64,000 nt of DNA from Prosthecobacter sp. Lineage in GTDB: Bacteria; Verrucomicrobiota; Verrucomicrobiia; Verrucomicrobiales; Verrucomicrobiaceae. Location of the stretch: NCBI GenBank assembly GCA_019186985.1, contig JABARQ010000045.1, forward strand, positions 1 through 64,000, read 5' to 3'. A model generated the notes under the pieces. It was not told the DNA's origin. It did no database searches and saw only the letters and a list, made by a program, of their open reading frames with translations. Shown here piece by piece: positions 48,002 through 60,257 of the stretch; the first letter of the stretch is position 1, and each line of letters opens with the position of its first letter. A program made the translations under genes and the position numbers.

Positions 48002-49609
48002 TTACACCTCGATTTTCAAGTCTTCCGCAATCGTCGCGAACTGTTCCAGGGCGGCCTGCAAGTCCTCCATGATGTCCTGGGCGATCACGCCGGGCGCGGG
48101 GAGATTGGCGGATTCTTCGAGGGCGTCGTCTTTGAGCCAGAAGATGTCGAGGTTGATCTTGTCGCGCTTGATCAGGTCCTCGTAGTCGAAGGCTTTGAAG
48201 CGCTCGGTTTCCTTCCGGTCGTGGCGGGAAGTGGCAGCGGCGTCCCGCCGCTTTTTATCCAATCCAGCAGCAAGCGGCGAGACGCCGCTTCTACCAAAGT
48301 AACAATTCACGAAGTCATCCAGATGCTCGCGCTTCAGGGGATTCTCCTTGAGCGTGAAGTGCATGTTGGTGCGCAGGTCGTAGATCCAGAGCTTCTTGGT
48401 CCAGGGCTTCTCCTGGGCAGGTTTGCGGTCGAAGAAGAGGACGTTGGCCTTCACGCCTTGGGCGTAAAAGATGCCGGTGGGCAAGCGCAACAGGGTGTGG
48501 ACATCGGCTTGCTTGAGGAGTTCGCGGCGAATCGTTTCCCCGGCTCCGCCTTCAAAGAGCACGTTGTCCGGCAGCACCACGGCGGCGCGACCGTGCATCT
48601 TGAGGATGGTGAAGATGTGCTGGAGGAAGTTGAGCTGCTTGTTGCTCGTGCTGGCCCAGAAGTCGTCGCGATTGATGACGAGGCTTTCCTTGGAGGACTC
48701 GCCCGCTTCGTTCACGATGGTGACGCTGCTCTTTTTGCCAAAGGGCGGATTGGCCAGGACGATCTCGTATTCGCCGTGCTTCCCGGCCAGCGCGTCCTTG
48801 GTGATCACGGGCAAGTCAAAGGTGGAAGCCGTGGAAGCGGCGTCCCGCCGCTTATCATCTGACTCAAGCGGCGGGACGCCGCTTCCACCATCCCCAATCC
48901 CATGCAGCAGCAGGTTCATGGCGCAGAGGCGGGTCACACTGTCCACCAGCTCGATGCCGTAGAAGGTTCCGCTCTTGAGCTGCTTCTTCTGGTCGCGGTC
49001 GAGCTGATGATGCTTGGCGATGTGGTCATGCGCGGCCAGCAGGAAGCCGCCGGTGCCGCAGGAGGGATCGCAGATGGTTTCGCCGGGCTGCGGGGCCACG
49101 ACTTCGACCATGGCGGCAATGAGGGCGCGCGGGGTGAAGTATTGGCCTGCGCCGCCCTTCACGTCCTCGGCGTTCTTTTGCAGCAGGCCCTCGTAGGCAT
49201 CGCCCTTCACATCGGCGGAAAGGCTGGACCACTGCTCCTTGTCGATCAGGTCCACGATCAGCCGCCGCAGTTTGGCCGGGTCCTGGATCTTGTTCTGCGC
49301 CTTGCGGAAGATGATGCCCAGCATCCCGGAGCACTTGCCCAGTTCCTCCAGCGTGTGGCGGTAATGCACCTCCAGCTCATCGCCATCCTTGGCGAGCAGG
49401 GAGGGCCAGTCCTTGCCCTTCGGGATAGTGGAAGCGGCGTCCCGCCGCTTGTCTTCACTCAGATAGGGAGACTTGGCCTGCTCGTCCGCCATCTTCAGGA
49501 ACAAAAGAAACGTGAGCTGCTCCACATAGTCGCCATAGGACAACCCATCATCGCGCAGGATGCTGCAGTAGTTCCAGAGCTTGGAGACGAGGGCGGTGGG
49601 GTTGGTCAT
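48002..49609 (-). CDS. hsdM: Type I restriction-modification methyltransferase subunit HsdM
   Basis: N6-adenine methyltransferase of 535 aa. HsdM N-terminal helices (LWNYCSILRDDGLSYGDYVEQLTFLLFLKM), SAM motif ICDPSCGTGGF (179-189) and catalytic NPPFGKKS (287-293) are intact. The protein carries three in-frame repeat peptides absent from family members: residues ~53-61 (KRRDAAST), ~242-260 (GSGVPPL..KRRDAAST) and one before RHDRKETERFKAFDYEDL near 445. It is the last gene of the hsd operon, 96 bases after the DUF3800 gene. Confidence 0.95.
   Translation of the reverse strand: MTNPTALVSKLWNYCSILRDDGLSYGDYVEQLTFLLFLKMADEQAKSPYLSEDKRRDAASTIPKGKDWPSLLAKDGDELEVHYRHTLEELGKCSGMLGIIFRKAQNKIQDPAKLRRLIVDLIDKEQWSSLSADVKGDAYEGLLQKNAEDVKGGAGQYFTPRALIAAMVEVVAPQPGETICDPSCGTGGFLLAAHDHIAKHHQLDRDQKKQLKSGTFYGIELVDSVTRLCAMNLLLHGIGDGGSGVPPLESDDKRRDAASTASTFDLPVITKDALAGKHGEYEIVLANPPFGKKSSVTIVNEAGESSKESLVINRDDFWASTSNKQLNFLQHIFTILKMHGRAAVVLPDNVLFEGGAGETIRRELLKQADVHTLLRLPTGIFYAQGVKANVLFFDRKPAQEKPWTKKLWIYDLRTNMHFTLKENPLKREHLDDFVNCYFGRSGVSPLAAGLDKKRRDAAATSRHDRKETERFKAFDYEDLIKRDKINLDIFWLKDDALEESANLPAPGVIAQDIMEDLQAALEQFATIAEDLKIEV
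48231..48294. repeat. REPIN-like element in hsdM (copy 1)
   Basis: Two inverted REP arms of 23 bases, 48231-48253 and 48272-48294. The right arm, read on the opposite strand, starts with GTAG, the tetranucleotide typical of enterobacterial REPs. Its core AAGCGGCG-AGA-CGCCGCTT is a perfect hairpin. Translated in frame on the minus strand as SGVSPL...KRRDAAAT. Confidence 0.9.
48831..48888. repeat. REPIN-like element in hsdM (copy 2)
   Basis: Perfect 23-base inverted repeat, 48831-48853 against 48866-48888, each arm being GTGG followed by the core AAGCGGCGTCCCGCCGCTT, itself a hairpin with a TCC loop. Spacer of 12 bases. Translated on the minus strand as GSGVPPL..DDKRRDAAST between the SAM motif and NPPF motif of HsdM. 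Confidence 0.93.
49428..49450. repeat. Single REP arm in hsdM (copy 3)
   Basis: One arm only: GTGG plus the 19-base core AAGCGGCGTCCCGCCGCTT, identical to the left arm of the 48831 copy. Read as DKRRDAAST in HsdM residues 53-61. No inverted partner is seen nearby. Confidence 0.88.
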
Positions 49610-49705: not shown

Positions 49706-50533
49706 TCAGGGTGAGGGCGGGCTTAATTTTTGGGCGGCAGTCAAGCGGTGCTTGCGGGTGTAGTAGTGCTGGTTTCCCACATACGAAGCCGAGTCGTAGA
49801 GGTCCACCACGAGCCTGATCTTATCACCGAGGAAGTCATAGTAGCGCGTCTCCCCGCGCTCAAAGACACGCTGCACGGCCCAGCACAGGTAGTCGGCGAC
49901 GTTGAGCAACGGCTCCGTGTGGTGGTTCTGCACGTTGAAGACCACGGTGGAGGTGATGCCATCCGTGTCGTGCTTCTTGCCGTGGCGCTCCACGGCTTTG
50001 TTCAGTGCCAGCTCCAGGTTCGTGTTCTTCGTGCTGTTGCCGCGTTCGGCGATGTTCAACACCAGCTTCTGCCCCAGACGCAGCTTGTTCTTCAGCAGGT
50101 GAGACAACACGTCCGCGTAGAACTCCGAGTCTTTGCCGTTGTGCTTGGTCTGGAACAATCGCGGAATCTTCCGCGCCACCATCACCTCGATGGTGCAGTC
50201 CAGACCTTCGATGAAGCGGAAAAAGCGTTCCCTCACTTCAGGCGGATCATCCGTGGCGTGGAAATAGAACCCCTTGCCCTGACTCTTCTTGAGCACGCTC
50301 GGGATCGTGTTCACATAGCGGTCCGCCAGCACCTCCTGCTGAAGCGCCCGCACCTGATCGCGGATCGGCCCCAGTTCACCGTTGAATTTCACCATGCCGA
50401 TGGCGAACGCCAGTGACACGCCCTGCTGACCGATGATCGGAATGCGTCCCTTGCCGAAAAAGGCCGTGTCGCCCGCTTCATCGAGGAAGCGATGACTCGT
50501 CTCGGACTTGGGTGGGTCGGTGGTGTCGATCAT
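49706..50533 (-). CDS. DUF3800 domain protein
   Basis: Protein of 275 aa. The N-terminal acidic motif HRFLDEAGDTAFF and the late LLNVADYLCWAVQRVFERGETRYYDFLGDKI match DUF3800, a family with a predicted RNase H-like fold and conserved Asp/Glu residues often found near mobile elements and defence genes. It could be a nuclease, but this is not established. The ATG at 50533 is used; a TTG at 50551 abuts the upstream stop. Lies 18 bases after the HTH-type gene inside the hsd operon. Confidence 0.75.
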   Translation of the reverse strand: MIDTTDPPKSETSHRFLDEAGDTAFFGKGRIPIIGQQGVSLAFAIGMVKFNGELGPIRDQVRALQQEVLADRYVNTIPSVLKKSQGKGFYFHATDDPPEVRERFFRFIEGLDCTIEVMVARKIPRLFQTKHNGKDSEFYADVLSHLLKNKLRLGQKLVLNIAERGNSTKNTNLELALNKAVERHGKKHDTDGITSTVVFNVQNHHTEPLLNVADYLCWAVQRVFERGETRYYDFLGDKIRLVVDLYDSASYVGNQHYYTRKHRLTAAQKLSPPSP

Positions 50534-50551
50534 GAAAGAAGGTTGGACCAA

Positions 50552-51811
50552 CTATTTAGCTTGGATTGCCAATAGGCCGGGAACATTGCTCGCCAAACTA
50601 GCTGGGTGATACTCATACGCTTTGACCATTGGATCCATCAGATCAGCTCGCAAGCAGAGCCAATCCATATACATTTTTGCCGGAGAATTCGCCTCCATCG
50701 CTTCCGGTTGGGTGAGAAACTTCGTCTTCATCGCATCGACGTAACGCCGCAAAAGGGCTGCTGTCTGCCATGCTTGGGCTGCTTGAACGGCCTTGTCCAG
50801 AGCTGTGGACTCGTTCTTCCTCTGGCTGTCCATCTTGGCGCGGAACTGAGCGATACGTTCACGGCGTTCCTGCTCAAGCTTGAGTCTGTCCGCCTCCTCT
50901 TGTCGCCTGATTCTCTCATCTCGCTTGTAATCAGCCAGAAGTTGCACCGTGCGAATGATCTCCGGCAGTCGATCTTCCACTTTTTGACGCTTCCCATCTT
51001 TCCAAGTCGTTGTGAGCTTGAATCCCCATGGCGATTCCAGCGAGAATTCTAAGACACCGCAGGGGTCTTCTCTCCATTCTCGCCAATGTCGCTTGGCTTC
51101 TTCTGGTTCCAATTTCGTCCTCCGGCTTTTCTCTCGCATAGAGAACGAAACCCTTTCGTCACCAACTTGAGCCCAGCACAGTCCTGAAGGTCGCTGTTGA
51201 TAGCTGTATTGATAGGAATGCTCAGGCCGATTCATTCCGGGGTCCATCGAACACACAAACGTTATCCCCACCGCCTCAGCCCCTCTGGCAAAGGCGTCCA
51301 AGAGAATCAACGCCCGCTCTTCAGAGGCTGCGGCGACGGAGGCATTGAATCGCTTTCGCTCCTTGCGCTGGTCCCACGGTATCTTGCTGCGGGACTCCCG
51401 CCATTGAGCACGGGTCGCTTTCACCAGCACATGGAGATTCTCCAGGTTCGCCGCAAGTTGAACCTTCGGCCATTCCTCCGCTGCTTCCTCAGCGTCCACG
51501 CGATCCTCTGCTGGATCAGGTCTGAGAAGCTTGCGGCTCTTCTGGCTGAGGCTGTTGCCCATATCCACCTGCCATTTGAGCTTGGTTTCCGGTCCCGCCT
51601 TCGGCAGAGCAGGTTTCTTCATTGCTTTGCCAAACTGCACTTGTGCCCAATGTCCCACCGGGGGTGTGGGTATATTCATAGCCATGCAGATGCGTTTCAA
51701 GGCACTGCTGGAAATACCCAGTCCAGCCGCAATCTGCGTGCATGGTCGTGACCACACATCATCAAAGAGAACACTCCTCTCCAGCACAACAGGGTCTGGA
51801 CGTGACGATAT
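50552..51811 (-). CDS. Unknown protein with N-terminal HTH and C-terminal coiled coil
   Basis: Protein of about 420 aa starting at 51814 (the ATGA overlaps the hsdS stop at 51811). The N-terminus (VVLERSVLFDDVWSRPCTQIAAGLGISSSALKRICMAMNIPTPPVGHWAQ) is a helix-turn-helix module also seen in other accessory-region proteins. The middle is charged, and residues ~300-380 form an Arg/Glu/Lys coiled coil. I do not know a function. Being locked into the hsd operon by overlapping stop/start codons argues for a role tied to the restriction system or its control. Confidence 0.7.
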   Translation of the reverse strand: MSSRPDPVVLERSVLFDDVWSRPCTQIAAGLGISSSALKRICMAMNIPTPPVGHWAQVQFGKAMKKPALPKAGPETKLKWQVDMGNSLSQKSRKLLRPDPAEDRVDAEEAAEEWPKVQLAANLENLHVLVKATRAQWRESRSKIPWDQRKERKRFNASVAAASEERALILLDAFARGAEAVGITFVCSMDPGMNRPEHSYQYSYQQRPSGLCWAQVGDERVSFSMREKSRRTKLEPEEAKRHWREWREDPCGVLEFSLESPWGFKLTTTWKDGKRQKVEDRLPEIIRTVQLLADYKRDERIRRQEEADRLKLEQERRERIAQFRAKMDSQRKNESTALDKAVQAAQAWQTAALLRRYVDAMKTKFLTQPEAMEANSPAKMYMDWLCLRADLMDPMVKAYEYHPASLASNVPGLLAIQAK

Positions 51812-53319
51812 CATCCAAGCTCGCCGGTGAACGCTTTTTGCAGCACCGCCTGCCGCAGGCGGGTGGCGCGTTGGAGGTTGGTGGTGACCACGGCTTCCAA
51901 TTCCTCCACCACGCTCAACCGCCGCTCCACTTCCGCCACGATGCGGGTTTGTTCGGCGAGGGGTGGGAGGGGAACGGGGATTTTGTTGAGGGCAGCTTGA
52001 GTAAGTTTTGGCTGGGCGCTTCCCGTAACGGAAAACGAAAGGTCTTTGCCATTCAGAAAGACAGCGAGATAAGCGAGAGGGATTCCTCCAAGAGTCTGGA
52101 CAATGTGAGCGTGATTATTGACCCAAAAGCGCCCGGTTGCTTTAAATGCTATTGGCGTGCTTCGAGACAGGAGATTTGCTCCGTCTTCAGCGATCAGGAG
52201 AAATTCCCCGTCGAAAAGAAAGTCGTCAATGTCATCAATGATTCCCGATGCGCCATAGTATGGGTATTGCCCGGAACGTTTATCGCGGTCGGCAGACTTT
52301 AAAGGCACTCTGCGCCCATCGTGATTTACTGTGATTTGATCCACGGTGGCCCAAGTCCAGCCATCTGGAAGAGTCACGAGATCGTCTACTTCGGGTGAAT
52401 CAGGCTCCTTGTATTTCCCCCGGCCCTGCCAGTTTTGGCGGCGTTCGCTGAGGATGCGAGCGAGGAGTTGCTGGCCGGATTCGAAAGTGGAAGCGGCATC
52501 CTGCCGCTTTGGGTTCGGTGACACTTTCGACCCGGCTTTGGAGGAAGAGGGCCTGGCGATTGAATCTGGATCAAGCAGCGGGACGCCGCTTCCACACAGT
52601 TCGGCTTCGGTGGGGACGAGGCGGCCTTCGCAGGCGGCTTTCAGGACGGCGGCGCGGTAGCGTTTGAGGTTGGCCTGCACCCGCCGCAACGCCTCCACTC
52701 CCGCCTCCAGCCGCGTGAATTGCTTCTCAATCTCCGCCACGATGCGGCGTTGGTCGGGAAGAGGTGGCAACGGAACCGGAAGCTTGGAAAGGATTTCAAC
52801 GTTGATGTTCTTCTGCGCGGTGGCCGGGGCCAGCCGCTCAAGTTCTGCTTTGGCGATTCGGAAATAGAGTTCAATGAAGCGCACGGTCACCGGGTCACCA
52901 TCATAATGAAAACCGACAACACTATCTGGGAAGCAAGCCGGATAGCTTAGAATCCCCGTCTCACCGATGTTCGCAGCAATGGTGATGCAAAGGGTTCCAG
53001 CCGGCCAAAGGCGACTCTGCGCCAATCCCAAGTCGCTATAAGTCTGGCTGTGCTTTCTGATCGTGCCTCCTGACTCGCGAATGTCGCCCGTCTGGATAAA
53101 TGGGTGTGGTCCGCCGTAAAGTTTGGCGTCGTTTCTCGGACGGTGTTTTGATTTCCCACGGGACAGTTCGCCAATGTCCTGGAGATAAACGGTTTGCCAG
53201 CCGTGTGGAACTGTAATGGCTTGGTCCGCCATTTCATGATTCGGGTGTTCTCTGGGAGCGTGGCCGTGACCAATCTTCGATTGCCTTTTTGGGGCGTAGG
53301 CGTCCGGGGGGGCACTCAT
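51811..53319 (-). CDS. hsdS: Type I restriction-modification specificity subunit HsdS
   Basis: DNA-recognition subunit of 502 aa with two target-recognition halves. The conserved helices are visible twice: PVPLPPLPDQRRIVAEIEKQFTRLEAGVEALRR centrally and PVPLPPLAEQTRIVAEVERRLSVVEELEAVV at the C-terminus. TRD starts are TVPHGWQTVYLQDIGE and TLPDGWTWATVDQITV. Between them, after RLVPTEAEL, an in-frame repeat peptide (CGSGVPLL...KRQDAAST) is inserted in the linker before ESGQQLLARILSERR. The first ~35 residues are poorly conserved. Overlaps both neighbours by four bases. Confidence 0.93.
   Translation of the reverse strand: MSAPPDAYAPKRQSKIGHGHAPREHPNHEMADQAITVPHGWQTVYLQDIGELSRGKSKHRPRNDAKLYGGPHPFIQTGDIRESGGTIRKHSQTYSDLGLAQSRLWPAGTLCITIAANIGETGILSYPACFPDSVVGFHYDGDPVTVRFIELYFRIAKAELERLAPATAQKNINVEILSKLPVPLPPLPDQRRIVAEIEKQFTRLEAGVEALRRVQANLKRYRAAVLKAACEGRLVPTEAELCGSGVPLLDPDSIARPSSSKAGSKVSPNPKRQDAASTFESGQQLLARILSERRQNWQGRGKYKEPDSPEVDDLVTLPDGWTWATVDQITVNHDGRRVPLKSADRDKRSGQYPYYGASGIIDDIDDFLFDGEFLLIAEDGANLLSRSTPIAFKATGRFWVNNHAHIVQTLGGIPLAYLAVFLNGKDLSFSVTGSAQPKLTQAALNKIPVPLPPLAEQTRIVAEVERRLSVVEELEAVVTTNLQRATRLRQAVLQKAFTGELG
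52487..52595. repeat. REPIN-like element in hsdS
   Basis: Left arm 52487-52509 (GTGG plus AAGCGGCATCCTGCCGCTT) and right arm 52573-52595 (AAGCAGCGGGACGCCGCTT plus CCAC), with a longer spacer of 63 bases. The left core changes G-C to A-T at both sides of the loop compared with the 48831 copy, keeping the hairpin. Translated in the HsdS linker. Confidence 0.9.
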
Positions 53320-54242
53320 GCTTTCAGATGTGAGCCGTAAAAGTCAAAAAATGTATCGAGATTCTGGGCAGTGTTCTGCGCCAATTCGCGGTGACTAGCG
53401 AAAGCTGGTGTGCTCAGAGTCGCGGAAAATAAAAAGAGAAAGTGCCCCCAGATAAAGCAGTAGTGAGCATGCGCGTAGGTTTGGAGTGTTCCGACGCTGC
53501 TCTTGAAAGGCGGCTGCATGCTGCCGTGAAAGCGATCGTTTCTAAAGGTATAAAGGAGCGCGTTGAACATGAAACTTATCCTTTCGGGCCTCGGCAGGAT
53601 GATCTTCGAACCCAATACATCGACTTCCTCGCCAGCTAGCGACTTGTGCAATAGGATCGCACTTTGCCTCCGCCCAACGCCATTCATGTGTGGGGCGCCG
53701 TATTTCTGAGCCATTTTCGTTAGAAGCAAGATGACCGAGTTATGATGTCCGGCAGGATTGTTGAGTCGGTTCCAGATCTTCTGATAGTCGCTTCCTACTA
53801 CCTGCCACTGGCTAAAAATACGTTCGATCATGTATTCACAGCATTGGACTGGGACACTATTGAGCAATTGGTTCAAAACCAAGTCATGTTCAGGTTGTCC
53901 GTCGATCAATGTAGCCAAACCAGGGGCTTCATCTCCAGGTTTGAAGGGTTTGGGCGCGATAACTCGACCGGCATAGAATGATTCAAATGCCCGCCAGATT
54001 GCATCAAATGAAAGGTCGAATTTCATTGGTAACAATTCCACAGCCTCCACTAAAAATGCGAGGTGGTAGTGGTAGTCGTTGTCTTCTGTATACTTGAAGG
54101 GATAAGGATAGAACATCCTGCTTGGGTTGGAGCGTAAACGCCCCACCAAAGCGGACTCCGCCGGATAAGGAGAATCAGCGAGATCAGTCTTGAGCTCCCA
54201 ATCTTTGTAGTGCTTGTGGCGTTGGACCCGGATCTTACTCAT
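53316..54242 (-). CDS. Unknown protein with HEPN-like RNDRFHG motif, inside hsd operon
   Basis: Protein of 308 aa, not a known Hsd subunit. It is mostly helical. Near residue ~235 it has LLYTFRNDRFHGSMQPPF, an Rx4H pattern like the RNxxxHG signature of HEPN nuclease/RNA-binding domains, followed by two aromatic helices (YAHAHYCFIWGHFLFLF). That assignment is tentative. Its ATG is 11 bases after the hsdR stop, and its stop overlaps the hsdS start, so it is a fixed member of the operon. The base composition looks AT-richer than hsdR and hsdM, suggesting separate acquisition. Confidence 0.7.
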   Translation of the reverse strand: MSKIRVQRHKHYKDWELKTDLADSPYPAESALVGRLRSNPSRMFYPYPFKYTEDNDYHYHLAFLVEAVELLPMKFDLSFDAIWRAFESFYAGRVIAPKPFKPGDEAPGLATLIDGQPEHDLVLNQLLNSVPVQCCEYMIERIFSQWQVVGSDYQKIWNRLNNPAGHHNSVILLLTKMAQKYGAPHMNGVGRRQSAILLHKSLAGEEVDVLGSKIILPRPERISFMFNALLYTFRNDRFHGSMQPPFKSSVGTLQTYAHAHYCFIWGHFLFLFSATLSTPAFASHRELAQNTAQNLDTFFDFYGSHLKA

Positions 54243-54253
54243 AAACGACTTGG

Positions 54254-57223
54254 TTAAGCTGCGAGCGCCTCGTTGAGTTCTTCCAGGAGCTTCGGCAACT
54301 GGTCGCCAAAGAGTTGATGGGCTTTCCCGAGGCCGCCTTCCTGGTTGAAGGGCGTGTAGTCGAGATCATCCAGCTCGATGCTGAGGCTGGTGGCGATGTG
54401 GTCGCGGATGAGCTTGAGCCACGCGAGCTGTTCGGGGGTGAATGGAGCGCGGACCTCCGAGTCCGCAGCGGGTGGAAAGGTCGAGGGCGATGAGGAACCA
54501 GACGATGTGTTGGCGGAGTTGGCTTCTGAGTTCGGGGCGCTGGGTGTTGGCGGAGTGCTGCGGACTTGGAAGTCCGCGCTCCTTTGGGCCAGCCATTGCT
54601 CGAAGCGCTCGTTCACGGAGTCGGCGAAGGGTTTGAGCACCGGCTGCTGCTCCAGGGCGAAGCGGACGAGGGAGACGAGGTCGGCGAAGCGTCCGGCCTG
54701 GGTGCGGCCTTTGACTTTGTCCGGGGCGGTGGCGGCGAAGGCGTTCCAGAGGTTGTCCTCGGTCCAGGCGGCGTGCTGCTCGCGGAGCTTCTTTTCGAGT
54801 TCCTTGAGCATCTTCTCGGTGAGGCGCTGGGCGTAGGGGCGGCTGTAGAGGATCTGGAGCGCGGTGATCTCGGCCTGATGCTGCTCGATGTAGTCGCGGA
54901 AGGATTTGGCGAGTGCGGTGGCCTTGTCCTTGGCGGCTCCGCTGAAGCCCTGCTCCAGCACTTCATCAATGACGGAGGTGGCGATGGTTTGCTCGCTCTC
55001 CTGATTCACCTTGGCGAGGAGGTCGCGCAGGGCGGGCTTGTCGAACGGGGCGCAGGCGGTGGTGATGAGTTCTGTCTGAGCTTTGGTGAAGGCTTCCTCG
55101 CTGAGTTCCTGGGGTTCGGCTCCTTTGATGCCGGTGGCGTGCTCGGCAACGGCGTCGGGATCGAAGGCCTTCAACAACGCGGCGGACATCTGGCTGAGCG
55201 TGTGCCCGCCGCTGGTGGTGGTGACTTCCTTTTGCTGCGCGGGGGTGAGTTCGCGGTCGAGCCGGGCAAGACGTCCGGCGAGGGAGGTGAGGCTGTCTTC
55301 ATCGCGCTTCCCGAGAGCGACGCCGAGGAGGAGTTTATCAAAGGCGACGGTGGGCTTGCGCTCCAGCGGGCGGGACTCGGTCTTGTCGCTCTCGCAGACG
55401 CCGACGGCATCGACGATGATGAAGTGGGTTTTGGCCTTGGCCTCGGCCCCGGAGACGGATTGCAGATCGGTGGGGGTGAGCACGCGGGTGCCGCGGCCTT
55501 TCATCTGCTCGAAATAGACGCGGCTGCGCACATCGCGGAGGAAGAGCAGGCACTCCAGGGGCTTGATGTCGGTGCCGGTGGCGATCATGTCCACGGTGAC
55601 GGCGATGCGGAGCTGCGGGGAGGTGCGGAACTCGGCGATGAGGTCCTCGCTTTTGGCCGGTTTGCCGGTGGTGGGATGCTTGGCCTGATAGGTGATCTTT
55701 TTGCAGAAGTCGGTGCCTTTGCCAAAGACCTCCCAGACAAGCTGGACGATGTCCTCGGCGTGGCTGTCGTCCTTGGCAAAGATGAGTGTCTTCGGCACCA
55801 AGGCACGGCCGGGGAACAGCTCGGTGAAGAGGGCATCGCGATACGCGGTGAGCACGGTGCGGATCTGCGAGGGGACGACGATGCTGCGGTCGAGTTCCTT
55901 TTCGGTGAAGGCGAGGTCTTCATCAAGGCGCTCCCAGCGGCGGCGGCGGGTCTCTTTGTGCCGACGGTCCACGTAGAAGCCTTTCTCCACCTTGTCGCCG
56001 GCCTCGGTGACGCGGGTGCGGATTCGATAGACCTCGTAGCCGACATTCACGCCATCGGCGACGGCCCGCTCGTGGCCATACTCCATGACGAGGTTCTGGT
56101 TGAAGAAGCCGATGGTCTGCTTCGACGGCGTGGCGGTGAGGCCGATGAGGTGGGCATCGAAATACTCCAGCACCTGACGCCAGAGGCCGTAGATGGAGCG
56201 GTGGCACTCGTCGGTGACGATGAAGTCGAAGGTCTCAATGGGGATGGCGGGATTGTAGGCGACGTCCAGAGTGGAAGCGGCATCCTGCCGCTTGTCAGAG
56301 GAACCAAGCGGCGGGACGCCGCTTCCACTTTGCATCGCCGCTGCGATCTCGAAACCAGATCGCTCATCAATATCCTCGGGCAGCTCCTCGCCGCGCAGCA
56401 TGGAGTAGAGCCGCTGGATGGTGCAGATGGTGACGCGGCAGACTTCGTCGAGCTTGTTCGAGGTGAGGTGCTGGACGTTGTAAACGGCGGTGAATTTCCG
56501 TCCGTCATCGGGCAGCACGTATTGATCGAACTCGGTCTTCGCCTGGCGACCGAGATTCGCCCGGTCCACGAGGAAGAGAACGCGTTTGGCCTTGGCGAAC
56601 TTGATGAGGCGGTAGGTGAAGGCGCAGGCGGTGAAGGTCTTGCCCGAGCCGGTGGCCATCTGGATGAGAGAACGCGGATAATCCGAGGCGAGCGACTGCT
56701 CCAGGCCGGTGATGCCTTCCACCTGGCAGTCTCTCATGCCGAGCGTGTTCAGCGGATGCGTGAAGGCCATCTCGGCGAGCAGCGTGCGGAGGGTCTTGGC
56801 CGAATCCATCCACTGCGCCAGTGTCTCGGGCCGGTGGAAGCAGAACACCCGGCGTGGGCGCGGATGCGGATCGCGCTCATCGCGGAAGAAGGTCTCCACG
56901 CCGGTGGATTCGTAGCGGAAGGGCAGCGAATCGGAGCCGAGACCCGCCGCGAGGAAGTCGGGCAGATTCTCCGCGTAGTGGGCTGACTGTTCCGCGACTG
57001 TGGAAAGGGTGACACCTTCCTTCTTGGCCTCGACGATGCCGACCGGCCTGCGATTCACCAGGAGCAGGTAGTCGCAGCGCCCCGACTTCAGCGGCACCTC
57101 GCACAAGGCAACGCCAAATGACGCGGAGGGATCGAAGGCCTTGTAGTCCTGAACGGCCCAGCCTGCCGCCGCCAGCATGGCGTCGATGGTTTCGCGGGCT
57201 TGCTGTTCCGGGAGGGCGGGCAT
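54254..57223 (-). CDS. hsdR: Type I restriction enzyme motor/nuclease subunit HsdR
   Basis: Protein of 989 aa. An N-terminal PD-(D/E)xK nuclease is visible (Asp51 in CDYLLLVNRRP, EAKKEG at 65-70). The SF2 translocase has Walker A MATGSGKTF (189-197), VDRANLGRQ, DECH box (338-341) and LTATPSK. The C-terminal half resembles the EcoEI-type HsdR C-terminal domain. Residues ~299-318 are an in-frame repeat peptide (SGSGVPPL..DKRQDAAST) inserted just before DVAYNPAIPIETFDFIVTDECH. It is the first gene of the operon, reading away from the AbiE genes. Confidence 0.95.
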   Translation of the reverse strand: MPALPEQQARETIDAMLAAAGWAVQDYKAFDPSASFGVALCEVPLKSGRCDYLLLVNRRPVGIVEAKKEGVTLSTVAEQSAHYAENLPDFLAAGLGSDSLPFRYESTGVETFFRDERDPHPRPRRVFCFHRPETLAQWMDSAKTLRTLLAEMAFTHPLNTLGMRDCQVEGITGLEQSLASDYPRSLIQMATGSGKTFTACAFTYRLIKFAKAKRVLFLVDRANLGRQAKTEFDQYVLPDDGRKFTAVYNVQHLTSNKLDEVCRVTICTIQRLYSMLRGEELPEDIDERSGFEIAAAMQSGSGVPPLGSSDKRQDAASTLDVAYNPAIPIETFDFIVTDECHRSIYGLWRQVLEYFDAHLIGLTATPSKQTIGFFNQNLVMEYGHERAVADGVNVGYEVYRIRTRVTEAGDKVEKGFYVDRRHKETRRRRWERLDEDLAFTEKELDRSIVVPSQIRTVLTAYRDALFTELFPGRALVPKTLIFAKDDSHAEDIVQLVWEVFGKGTDFCKKITYQAKHPTTGKPAKSEDLIAEFRTSPQLRIAVTVDMIATGTDIKPLECLLFLRDVRSRVYFEQMKGRGTRVLTPTDLQSVSGAEAKAKTHFIIVDAVGVCESDKTESRPLERKPTVAFDKLLLGVALGKRDEDSLTSLAGRLARLDRELTPAQQKEVTTTSGGHTLSQMSAALLKAFDPDAVAEHATGIKGAEPQELSEEAFTKAQTELITTACAPFDKPALRDLLAKVNQESEQTIATSVIDEVLEQGFSGAAKDKATALAKSFRDYIEQHQAEITALQILYSRPYAQRLTEKMLKELEKKLREQHAAWTEDNLWNAFAATAPDKVKGRTQAGRFADLVSLVRFALEQQPVLKPFADSVNERFEQWLAQRSADFQVRSTPPTPSAPNSEANSANTSSGSSSPSTFPPAADSEVRAPFTPEQLAWLKLIRDHIATSLSIELDDLDYTPFNQEGGLGKAHQLFGDQLPKLLEELNEALAA
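56271..56328. repeat. REPIN-like element in hsdR
   Basis: Left arm 56271-56293 (GTGG plus AAGCGGCATCCTGCCGCTT) and right arm 56306-56328 (AAGCGGCGGGACGCCGCTT plus CCAC), spacer of 12 bases. Same total length (58 bases) as the 48831 copy. Translated on the minus strand as SGSGVPPL..DKRQDAAST between motifs I and II of the HsdR translocase. Confidence 0.93.
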
Positions 57224-57375
57224 GCTGAGATTCCCCCATCAAATCAGGACTAAACCCAAGGTCAAGGAATTAGACGCTTTCAGCATTTCACTGACACCAC
57301 CACCCGATAACCCAAGAACTTCAGCCCAAAACAGTTAGACCAACAGCAAATCCCCCAACAATGGGATAAAACCAC

Positions 57376-57433
57376 CTAACCCGCCACTTCCAGCACAGCC
57401 TGGGCGGCGCGGTGGTAGGAACCGGGGGCGCCG
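57376..57433 (-). repeat. Duplicate of lpxB 3' end (possible attachment-site scar)
   Basis: On the minus strand this reads GAPGSYHRAAQAVLEVAG and a stop (TAG), the same amino acids as the last 18 codons of lpxB at 59136. Over 57381-57433 the two copies differ at only two bases, both synonymous; the last Gly codon and the stop also differ. No lpxB body is attached. With the lpxB end it flanks the AbiE pair as a direct repeat. Confidence 0.85.
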
Positions 57434-57453
57434 GAGCACGTCCAAGAACCTGA

Positions 57454-58344
57454 TCAGGAAAGAGGACGCCAGCCCGAAGCCAGACTCCATTTCATAGCAG
57501 GCTGACCAGCAGGATCACCGAGCACTGGCTGCAGAAAGCCGTGCAGCCTTTGGATGATGAGCGGCAAAGGATCAGCCGTGAGCCTGCCTTTTCGGAGAAA
57601 GGCCGACCACTGAGTCTGCTTGTCCCTGCTGTCACCAAATGCTGCCGTCAGCGCCAGCGGTGTCTCGCTCGGCCAGGCAGTGCCTCGGCGAGCGAAGGTG
57701 CCTAGCAGGGCCTCGCGCAACGTCGCCTGATGGAACTCCATGTGCCGACACAGCCAGTCCAGGTCGAAAAAGTCCTTCATGCGGCTGTTGTCCATTCGCA
57801 GTTCCACCGCAGCATGCAATTTCTCGGCGATCACCGTTTCCGGCGGGTAGGTCAGCAACCTCGCCTGGGGAAAATCCAGCAATTCTCGCCACGACTGCTC
57901 CAAGGGTTCTGGAATGATGGTGTCACCAAAACCAATGTCCACTTGAAGAGGAATCCGAGTTCGTTCCAACAGCGCCAAGACCTCGATTCTTATTCCTTCA
58001 TACCTTTCATCCTCACGGATGCGGCTGGCGCTGACATGCGTCCAGACGAGACCATCCTCGGGGTCCGCAGGTGATGCCAGCACCCGCTCGAAGAACATCT
58101 TCAGGTCTTCCACCGAGGAGCTTCCAAAGCCCAGAAGATCCAGGTCTCGCGTGGGACGGTGTGGAGACTGCTGCCATACGGAAAAGAGCTGCGCCCCCTT
58201 GAGCACAAACGTGCGCTCAGCGTGAGCCAGCCTCCAGAGCAGCCGCCCCATCGCGAAACGTTCGAGCAGTCGTTGGAAATCTCCTCCCTGGCTGCGGGAA
58301 AGGTTCAGCAGACGATCCTTGATGGAGGTGGCTAGGTTTTTCAT
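57454..58344 (-). CDS. abiEii: AbiEii-type toxin (nucleotidyltransferase)
   Basis: Protein of 296 aa. The nucleotidyltransferase core is clear: FVLKGAQLFSVWQQSPHRPTRDLDLLG (G-S-like and DxD motifs, ~46-72), a later acid in PLQVDIGFGD, and TYPPETVIAEKLHAAVELRMDNSRMKDFFDL. In type IV AbiE systems this enzyme is the toxin and gives abortive infection when unrestrained. The start overlaps the antitoxin stop by four bases. Convergent to nothing; the lpxB-like repeat and hsdR promoter region follow. Confidence 0.9.
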   Translation of the reverse strand: MKNLATSIKDRLLNLSRSQGGDFQRLLERFAMGRLLWRLAHAERTFVLKGAQLFSVWQQSPHRPTRDLDLLGFGSSSVEDLKMFFERVLASPADPEDGLVWTHVSASRIREDERYEGIRIEVLALLERTRIPLQVDIGFGDTIIPEPLEQSWRELLDFPQARLLTYPPETVIAEKLHAAVELRMDNSRMKDFFDLDWLCRHMEFHQATLREALLGTFARRGTAWPSETPLALTAAFGDSRDKQTQWSAFLRKGRLTADPLPLIIQRLHGFLQPVLGDPAGQPAMKWSLASGWRPLS

Positions 58345-58949
58345 GCCAGCGCCTCCATATAAGGCCGCATCACCTGGTCCATCCGGAATATCTCCCGGTA
58401 CCGATGCATCGGCACCAGGCTTTTTCGGCGGTTACGAAGCCTTTCCCGAAGCGCCTCCAGACATGCTTCCAGAGTCACCTGGTTCCGGTGTTTGAAGCAA
58501 TCCACAATGGTGCGGTCCGGGTCCGTGACCTTCACAGCCACGCCATCCAGCATGTGCGTCTCCACTCCAAGGGTGAAGCTTTCAGGCACCCGGCTGCGAA
58601 TGATGCGCAGGGGAGGCCAGGACACTTTGGGCGTGGGGCAGTTGTGCGGGATCAGCATCCATACCTCATTCGGCTGCTGAGTACCGATCTTGTGAAAGGC
58701 CAGGGCGCTTAGCAGGCAGACAATCCCTTTGGGCACCTGCATCGCAGCCTCCATCAATCCAGGCATGATATGCCCCGGTTCCCCCACCACACTGTAAAGA
58801 CCACGTCCTGTCCGCGTGATCCGCCCAGCCCGTTGCAGCCGGGTCAGCGCCATGGCATTCACACCAACCGCCAGCGCTTCCGCACGACGAAAAAGCGGTT
58901 TTGTCCGCGAAAGCTGCCTCAGCACTTCGAGATGAGGGTTAGACTTCAT
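58341..58949 (-). CDS. abiEi: AbiEi-type antitoxin/transcriptional repressor
   Basis: Protein of 202 aa. An N-terminal winged helix (LFRRAEALAVGVNAMALTRLQRAGRITRTGRGLYSV) is followed by the AbiEi family region (GIVCLLSALAFHKIGTQQPNEVWMLIP, VKVTDPDRTIVDCFKHRNQV). Known AbiEi proteins neutralise the toxin and repress the operon by binding inverted repeats; two such palindromes overlap this gene's promoter. Gene order antitoxin-toxin with ATGA overlap is the standard one. Confidence 0.9.
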   Translation of the reverse strand: MKSNPHLEVLRQLSRTKPLFRRAEALAVGVNAMALTRLQRAGRITRTGRGLYSVVGEPGHIMPGLMEAAMQVPKGIVCLLSALAFHKIGTQQPNEVWMLIPHNCPTPKVSWPPLRIIRSRVPESFTLGVETHMLDGVAVKVTDPDRTIVDCFKHRNQVTLEACLEALRERLRNRRKSLVPMHRYREIFRMDQVMRPYMEALA

Positions 58950-58960
58950 GATACTGGAGC

Positions 58961-59009
58961 AACGTTTTAAACGTTATGCCATTATATATTAATGGCATAG
59001 TTTTTGCAA
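58961..59009 (-). promoter_or_regulatory. abiE promoter with two palindromic operators
   Basis: On the minus strand TTGCAA (59004-59009) and TATAAT (58981-58986) are spaced 17 bases apart. The spacer and -10 box lie in a palindrome with arms ATGCCATTA and TAATGGCAT (58976-58998). A second palindrome, AACGTTT-T-AAACGTT (58961-58975), covers the expected transcription start. The antitoxin ATG is at 58949. This is the layout expected for AbiEi autorepression. Confidence 0.75.
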
Positions 59010-59135
59010 CACATCTTGTTCCTCGTCACCTAGCCATGCGCACCTGCCTAGGTCTGCCACAGAGACGTCCGGCAAAAAAAGCTCAGGCACAAACCTGATT
59101 CAAAGATGAAGCAATCACGCATTCCGAATGAGCAC

Positions 59136-59193
59136 TCACCCCGCCACTTCCAGCACGGCCTGGGCGGCGCGGTGGTAGGAGCCGGGGGCGCCG
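59136..59193 (-). repeat. lpxB 3' end, partner of the repeat at 57376
   Basis: Final 18 codons and stop of lpxB, repeated at 57376-57433. The two copies bracket about 1.7 kb carrying the abiE promoter and both AbiE genes. Confidence 0.85.
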
Positions 59194-60257
59194 AGCTGGG
59201 CGACGACTTCGGCGAGTTCGGCCTGAAGATGGGTGCGGCGGGCGTCGTCGGTGAGCAGGCTGACCATTTCCTCGGCAAGGCTGGTCGGGGTCAGATCAGC
59301 CTGGACAAGTTCGCGGATGACATCGCGGCCGGCGAGGATGTTGACGATGCCGATCTTCTCGATCTTCACGACCAGCTTCGCGGCGAGGTAGGTGATGGGA
59401 TTGACGTGATACACCAGCGCGTAGGGCAGGCCGAAGCAGGCGGCCTCCAGCGTGGCGGTGCCGCTGGCGACGGCTCCCGTCTGGCAGCGCTGCATCAAAT
59501 CATAGACGGTGCCGACCTCGATCCACTTCCGGGCTTCGGGGACGCCGGCGGCATCGGCCAGCTCGCGCATGGTCTGCGCCAGCCGCTCATTGGCGGCCGA
59601 GACGGCAAAGCGGGCGTTCGGGACCTGAAGCCGGATGGCCAGGGCGGCCTGCAGCATGACGGGAAAAAGCTTCTTCACCTCGTTGGAGCGGCTGCCAGGG
59701 AACCAGCCGACCAGGCCGGGCTCGCGCTTCCACTCACGCTTCAGCGCCGTGACACGGTCCACCATGGGATGCCCGCCGAAGACGGTGGGCAGGCCGCTCT
59801 TCTCATAGAACTCCTTCTCAAAGGGGAAGATGCAGATCATGAGGTCGAGCACCCGGGCCATGACCTTCACGCGCCCCTTCTTCCAGGCCCAGACCTGCGG
59901 GCTGATGTAATAGATGAGCCTGCCGGCATAACCCCCTTTGCGAAGGGCCTGGGCGAGCCGGAGGTTGAAGCCGGGATAGTCCACGAAGATCACGGCCTCC
60001 GGGCGTTCCTGAAGGATCTGGCGCACGGAGTCATTCATGCGCGCCTTGAAGTAGGAGTACATCTTCAGCACTTCCCACAGGCCGACGACGCCCGCCTTCT
60101 CCACCCAGTCCTGAATCCCCTTCCCTGCGGCCTCCTTCATGCGCGGTCCGCCCAGGCCGGTGAAGCGCAGCCCGGGCCTCTGCGCCTGCAGCTCCCGGAT
60201 CAGCCCGGCGGCATGGGTGTCCCCGCTGATCTCGCCGGCGATGATGTGAAGATGCAT
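59136..60257 (-). CDS. lpxB: Lipid-A-disaccharide synthase
   Basis: Glycosyltransferase (GT19) joining lipid X and UDP-2,3-diacylglucosamine in lipid A synthesis at the inner membrane. The 373 aa protein has the family blocks MHLHIIAGEISGDTHAAGLI, DYPGFNLRLA, YYISPQVWAWKKGRV, WFPGSRSNEV and ASGTATLEAACFGLPYALVYHV. The ATG at 60257 is chosen by family alignment. Its last 58 bases are duplicated at 57376. A Gfo/Idh/MocA gene lies 43 bases upstream on the same strand. Confidence 0.95.
   Translation of the reverse strand: MHLHIIAGEISGDTHAAGLIRELQAQRPGLRFTGLGGPRMKEAAGKGIQDWVEKAGVVGLWEVLKMYSYFKARMNDSVRQILQERPEAVIFVDYPGFNLRLAQALRKGGYAGRLIYYISPQVWAWKKGRVKVMARVLDLMICIFPFEKEFYEKSGLPTVFGGHPMVDRVTALKREWKREPGLVGWFPGSRSNEVKKLFPVMLQAALAIRLQVPNARFAVSAANERLAQTMRELADAAGVPEARKWIEVGTVYDLMQRCQTGAVASGTATLEAACFGLPYALVYHVNPITYLAAKLVVKIEKIGIVNILAGRDVIRELVQADLTPTSLAEEMVSLLTDDARRTHLQAELAEVVAQLGAPGSYHRAAQAVLEVAG

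Follow-up and report, generated by a model that had tools for sequence, protein, structure and literature searches.

AbiE cassettes beside duplicated gene ends: an lpxB locus of Prosthecobacter and its counterparts at hsdR

Integrative elements that target the 3' ends of protein-coding genes, such as SGI1 at trmE, leave a duplicated 3' end, with the gene restored by incoming DNA. Among transformable bacteria there are documented cases of homology-facilitated illegitimate recombination. During E. coli conjugation it occurs at low frequency, and most recombinants carry partial duplications of 109-950 bp; these duplications of the lacZ end were attributed to single crossovers of truncated circles (PMC3240628). 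The same kind of recombination has been proposed for the T6SS immunity arrays of Vibrio (PMC5361080). In the T6SS effector-immunity and Rhs/CDI displacement arrays (Vibrio cholerae), modules enter beside a conserved anchor and older ones are shifted away (PMC5361080). A further setting is the gap between hsdS and hsdR of type I restriction-modification (RM) operons, which holds accessory systems (DarTG2 in EPEC) and is termed a potential recombination hotspot in one study (PMC12255303).

Neither AbiE nor the presence of other systems in the hsdS-hsdR gap is new. At the locus described here, a truncated copy of the neighboring gene (herein a stub) marks the insertion of an AbiE pair; the gene is lpxB at this locus and hsdR or a subtilase gene elsewhere. 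In the open-access literature we found no report of AbiE with hsdR stubs or of an element at lpxB, and none that treats stubs of hsdR or lpxB as scars of insertion.

An AbiE pair between two copies of the lpxB 3' end

The stretch analyzed, herein the window, comprises the first 64,000 nt of contig JABARQ010000045.1 of Prosthecobacter sp. Its minus strand carries, in order, lpxB, abiEi, abiEii and the type I RM genes hsdR, hsdS and hsdM. The lpxB gene (59136-60257, minus strand; lipid-A-disaccharide synthase; PF02684, E = 4e-88) is intact, with an ATG start at 60257. Its final 18 codons and TGA stop (59136-59193, minus strand) are found again at 57376-57433 (minus strand) as an orphan tail of 18 codons and a TAG stop, which may be the remnant of the native gene end. 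Together they form a direct repeat of 58 nt with 5 mismatches and a start-to-start spacing of 1760 nt (E = 4e-18; self-BLAST of the 64 kb window). All five differences are synonymous (GGT/GGC, GCT/GCC, GGT/GGG, TAG/TGA), and the translation of either copy is GAPGSYHRAAQAVLEVAG followed by the stop. The repeat has sharp edges, with the stop codon at one end and an abrupt break within an lpxB codon at the other, and its folding is unremarkable (z 0.63).

Between the two copies lie abiEi (58341-58949, minus strand), encoding a predicted antitoxin/repressor of 202 aa (PF13338, E = 3e-11; PADLOC AbiEi, E = 7e-61), and abiEii (57454-58344, minus strand), encoding a nucleotidyltransferase-like putative toxin of 296 aa (PF08843, E = 6.6e-42; PADLOC AbiEii, E = 4e-91). 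The genes share an operon with abiEi upstream, and abiEii overlaps abiEi by 4 nt. Ahead of them is a sigma-70-like promoter site, TTGCAA-17-TATAAT (58981-59009, minus strand; 10/12 consensus), together with an inverted repeat of 25 nt, read directly as TATGCCATTA-tatat-TAATGGCATA (58975-58999), which by analogy with the AbiE literature is a candidate AbiEi operator. The overlapping bicistron, the nucleotidyltransferase domain of AbiEii, the wHTH AbiEi and the candidate inverted-repeat operator are those of AbiE type IV toxin-antitoxin (TA) systems; both proteins are ordinary family members, and the unusual part is their setting. From these features we predict that the pair acts in phage defense as a toxin-antitoxin module. 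The GC content is about 57-59% in the AbiE region and about 64-66% in lpxB.

The AbiE-linked DNA meets the lpxB stub at 57433/57434, 20 nt past the abiEii stop, where homology ends sharply; this joint is presumably illegitimate. Both lpxB ends have a terminator-like hairpin downstream, at 59083-59098 (minus strand), 38 nt past the lpxB stop, and at 57350-57367 (minus strand), 9 nt past the stop of the orphan tail. Both are matches from a consensus scan, and they would fit each end having retained its own downstream context, the former hairpin then coming with the donor DNA and the latter being the native lpxB terminator.

Directly beyond the lpxB stub lies hsdR (54254-57223; HSDR_N, ResIII, EcoEI_R_C), followed by hsdS (51811-53319; PF01420) and hsdM (48002-49609; N6_Mtase, HsdM_N), all on the minus strand. 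Accessory genes lie inside the operon within 49706-54242; their products are a DUF3800 protein, a 308-aa protein that matches no Pfam family and a protein of 420 aa with a weak RWP-RK match. A short palindromic element with the core GTGGAAGCGGCATCCTGCCGCTT is scattered through hsdR, hsdS and hsdM (window positions 48231, 48831, 49428, 52487 and 56271; reverse copies at 48272, 48866, 52573 and 56306), and within hsdR and hsdS it is in frame, encoding KRQDAAST.

No mobility gene and no transposase lies between the lpxB copies, and no integrase was found among the genes around the repeats. A genome-wide scan restricted to tyrosine recombinases (PF00589) rather than serine recombinases returned eight in the genome and none on the window's contig, C34. 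On these points the preliminary description of the window stands: it had reported the 18 codons and stop at 57376-57433 with synonymous changes only (confirmed by alignment), the abiE promoter and both genes between the copies (confirmed by Pfam and PADLOC, and for the promoter by the consensus scan) and the missing integrase. Its concern that the repeat might be widespread is removed by the count of just two copies in the 5.9 Mb genome, a third being absent; the further copy that it suggested seeking at the outer end of the hsd operon was looked for, and none is there.

The lpxB junction in related genomes

We compared the lpxB 3' end and the DNA downstream of it in 60 loci of the family (L033-L092). 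All 60 have a single lpxB tail at lpxB, and none has AbiE downstream. The genes directly downstream vary in almost every genome of this set; the downstream side of lpxB is a variable junction and a general synteny breakpoint. When a profile of the LpxB C terminus was run over 387 genomes of the order, two lpxB-tail matches at E<=0.002 were obtained in the window's genome alone, and the weak matches in G059, G001, G032, G052, G057 and G009 proved to be chance frames in other sequence. The tail had no match in phage records (BLAST) or in viral contigs (degenerate pattern). Three integrase-like motif matches in ORFs downstream of relatives' lpxB were all false (one shared 236-aa gene).

The preliminary description had proposed looking downstream of lpxB in related strains for an empty site with one copy. 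At the level of strains no empty site was found among the available genomes, in which the nearest LpxB is 79% identical. A donor in which AbiE adjoins lpxB was likewise not found, and the flanks of both lpxB tails gave no informative match in any compared locus, so that the donor and native sides are not assignable from relatives.

Two relatives hold fragments that resemble past events. In G034, the end of lpxB and the sequence after its stop are present as a 52-nt copy at 90% identity (L073 567-618 and 874-925), 307 bp apart, with no recognizable gene between the copies. G020 has an orphan lpxB-like tail, GAYARAAAAVHEALG, with its own stop (L123/L131 116-157, G020:C24); it lies at a contig end beside an N run, on a contig other than that of G020's lpxB. 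Past these two fragments, no other cargo with lpxB-tail repeats was found in relatives. Control DNA, 404 kb from downstream of lpxB, contained only two direct repeats with an identity of 85% or more and a separation of 300-9000 bp; the lpxB tail of G034 is one of these. A repeat of about 60 nt in G036 (L036), 100 bp apart, starts at the final lpxB codons and holds the hairpin CTCGTTCGCCAGAACGAG.

AbiE pairs and defense cassettes beside other gene ends

A scan of GTDB genomes yielded 80 AbiE loci from many phyla; the nearest named AbiE matches are Verrucomicrobiaceae MAGs, and the family set comprises 68 genomes. In G039 (AbiEii 66% identical), the AbiE pair lies between two copies of the hsdR 5' end that form a direct repeat of 207 nt with a spacing of 1793, in the order hsdR stub, abiEi, abiEii, 4 nt and full hsdR. 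The two genes upstream of this arrangement are also present in G023, where they directly adjoin an intact, unduplicated hsdR without a stub; the G023 hsdR is the equivalent of an empty site. At L160 the layout is that of the window, with an hsdR 3' end, AbiE and a 169-nt hsdR 3' tail, and at L159 (Planctomycetota) an 85-nt hsdR 5' stub is followed by AbiE and hsdR. The closest AbiE (AbiEi 85%; AbiEii broken) is that of L179, where a subtilase 3' end, a Schlafen cassette, a decayed hsdR stub, AbiE, an hsdR 5' stub and a subtilase tail follow one another; the repeat of the subtilase 3' end spans 129 nt at 98% identity, with 2 differences. AbiE also adjoins hsdR 5' stubs in G121 (L268 2930-4718, G121:C281), G365 and G332, the first two belonging to other families of the order. 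In a prophage of G015 (L119 3584-7467), AbiE and two other genes separate the portal gene from the S49 protease gene, and 67 nt of the portal-protease junction are duplicated at 91% identity.

Two further observations concern AbiE loci of relatives. G028 (L118 3408-4803) has a second, divergent AbiE-like pair about 2 kb from the first, judged by eye to be a nucleotidyltransferase and a wHTH regulator. A 77-nt repeat flanking AbiE in G017 has a third copy elsewhere on the contig and was set aside as a dispersed repeat.

Of the 75 independent AbiE loci whose flanks were long enough, 6 are tightly bracketed by direct repeats, where random intervals within the same loci predict 0.09 (P about 7e-10); the thresholds were fixed after the first cases had been seen, and three of the six repeats (L201, L219 and L223) are counted although not clearly gene ends. 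One locus (L155) is G039 again. Under a looser criterion, 11 of 78 AbiE loci are bracketed, compared with 4.1%.

The hsdR end is occupied by more than AbiE. In relatives, cassettes of HEC-01, Septu, TIR, Schlafen, AbiE and GmrSD type lie upstream of hsdR, with truncated hsdR 5' ends between them. A series in G004 (L267 4918-12165, G004:C261) runs from a HEC-01-type pair through a stub, a Septu PtuA/PtuB-like pair, a stub, a TIR gene, a stub and a Schlafen-type gene to an intact hsdR; its TIR gene is a TIR-domain/methyltransferase gene. In G365 (L269 780-6117, G365:C66) the order is stub, AbiE, stub, GmrSD with a YhcG-type nuclease, and hsdR, and in G040 a single Schlafen gene lies between an hsdR stub and hsdR. 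Serial insertion arrays are seen at hsdR in G004 and G365 and not at the window's lpxB. Provided that a stub remains after every insertion, the cassette beside the intact hsdR would be the most recent.

Origin of the stubs and comparison with known systems

A stub that arose by duplication in place would be non-functional and could change freely. At lpxB, a small sample of five differences when taken alone, the all-synonymous outcome has P = 0.0017 under neutral drift of both copies and P = 0.016 if the stub was free and the gene drifted synonymously. Between the hsdR 3' copies of L160, 17 of 22 differences are synonymous (P = 1e-8 with both copies drifting; P = 3e-5 with the gene drifting synonymously). 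Seven stub cases combined give P = 6e-5 under the stricter model, in which the gene copy drifts synonymously; individual cases vary, and the first stub of G004 has no synonymous bias and is not allele-like. A synonymous bias fits copies that were already alleles of separate lineages when they came together, in which case the incoming DNA carried a gene end along with the cassette. On balance, the pattern of substitutions suggests that stub and gene copies diverged as working genes before they were joined.

The explanation that accounts best for these loci, and that we consider reasonably probable, is homology-anchored insertion of an AbiE cassette without mobility genes. The cassette probably spread through homologous recombination anchored on a neighboring gene and not through an integrase of its own. 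Donor DNA would have contained AbiE fused to the lpxB 3' end of another lineage; this end would recombine with the resident lpxB through their common sequence, and the other end of the donor would join illegitimately 58 bp ahead of the resident lpxB stop. If the donor fragment was linear, the route may have been homology-facilitated illegitimate recombination; if it was circularized, a single crossover may have sufficed. The outcome would be a whole lpxB with the donor's 3' end, AbiE behind it and the native end orphaned beyond AbiE; the present lpxB 3' end would accordingly be the donor-derived copy. Acting on hsdR 5' ends in type I RM operons, the same process would build defense arrays with stubs between the cassettes. 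Since lpxB is essential and hsdR is presumably under selection, events that failed to restore the gene would be lost, and this would account for stubs being gene ends in every case. Genes for ComEC and DprA are present in the genome; both are common, also in non-competent bacteria, and they permit competence without proving it.

Other origins have been weighed. The preliminary description read the repeats as attL and attR of a site-specific integrative element that targeted the 3' end of lpxB, that carried a replacement end and whose integrase was lost or acts in trans. The geometry is the classic one (a gene 3' end, a replacement end with synonymous changes, sharp edges), direct repeats that restore the end of the target gene are present in the window (58 nt, synonymous) as in integrase-dependent islands, and the partial lpxB-tail duplication of G034 (52 bp, 307 bp apart) and the orphan of G020 could be further traces of such an element. 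Yet the contig lacks an integrase, about 60 relatives have no such element at lpxB, and a second complete lpxB tail is missing from the other genomes among the 387 of the order, from phage records and from viral contigs. Use of the same attachment site was not seen in relatives; no comparable lpxB pair was found in the other genomes among the 387. Moreover, pairs of the same AbiE family are bracketed elsewhere by fragments of other genes and by repeats of other lengths, and anchors that vary in both respects are not expected of an integrase with a fixed att site. We therefore regard an integrative element as unlikely; insertion at the lpxB 3' end and the arrival of a replacement end with it are kept in the homology-anchored reading, and the attL/attR assignment is dropped. 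Duplication in situ is another candidate: AbiE DNA would have been taken up while a break was being repaired, or a template switched, at the end of lpxB, with the last 58 bp copied twice as a long target duplication and the copies drifting thereafter. The subtilase copies of L179, 98% identical with 2 differences, look as a recent event of this kind would, but the synonymous differences at lpxB (5/5, P = 0.016) and L160 (17/22, P = 3e-5) are unexpected for a dead stub and make this origin quite unlikely.

It is also conceivable that hsdR is a site of growing, ordered arrays at which a dedicated process attaches AbiE, Schlafen, TIR, Septu and GmrSD cassettes to conserved gene ends, in place of occasional homologous recombination followed by selection; this we hold to be improbable. 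A stepwise history would begin with an AbiE plasmid or circle that integrated by a full Campbell crossover in lpxB, a later deletion leaving the final 58 bp of the duplicate. Such a history is driven by homology, accounts for allele-like copies and for stubs of either gene end, and has a precedent in the single-crossover lacZ-end duplications of 109-950 bp in E. coli (PMC3240628). It appears very improbable here, as no vector backbone is left and a deletion within tens of bases of AbiE would be needed at several independent loci.

Insertion beside gene ends bears on how small defense and TA modules spread without an integrase or transposase. Stubs are a readable scar that would record the anchor gene, the order of insertion (newest beside the intact hsdR) and the donor allele, and the route of acquisition is testable through stub scans of genomes. 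Stub insertion would also give a concrete reason for type I RM operons gathering defense systems between hsdS and hsdR.

Compared with SGI1-type elements, the window locus has neither an integrase nor a fixed core, and the same cargo is found at different anchors. Transposon target-site duplications do not match, since the copies have diverged, their lengths vary from 32 to 228 nt and the window's copies have no transposase between them; integron cassettes differ in that the stubs are coding gene ends and not attC-like. For DarTG2 in EPEC, hsdR stubs and a mechanism are not reported in the part of the study considered here (PMC12255303), whereas in the present loci the stubs mark successive insertions. 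T6SS/Rhs arrays build up with fragments of anchor or effector genes that are comparable to our stubs (PMC5361080); they differ in that the cargo here consists of defense/TA cassettes, the anchors are hsdR 5' ends, hsdR 3' ends, lpxB and subtilase, and the anchor gene is restored instead of displaced. The logic of the T6SS/Rhs arrays is thereby extended to defense modules.
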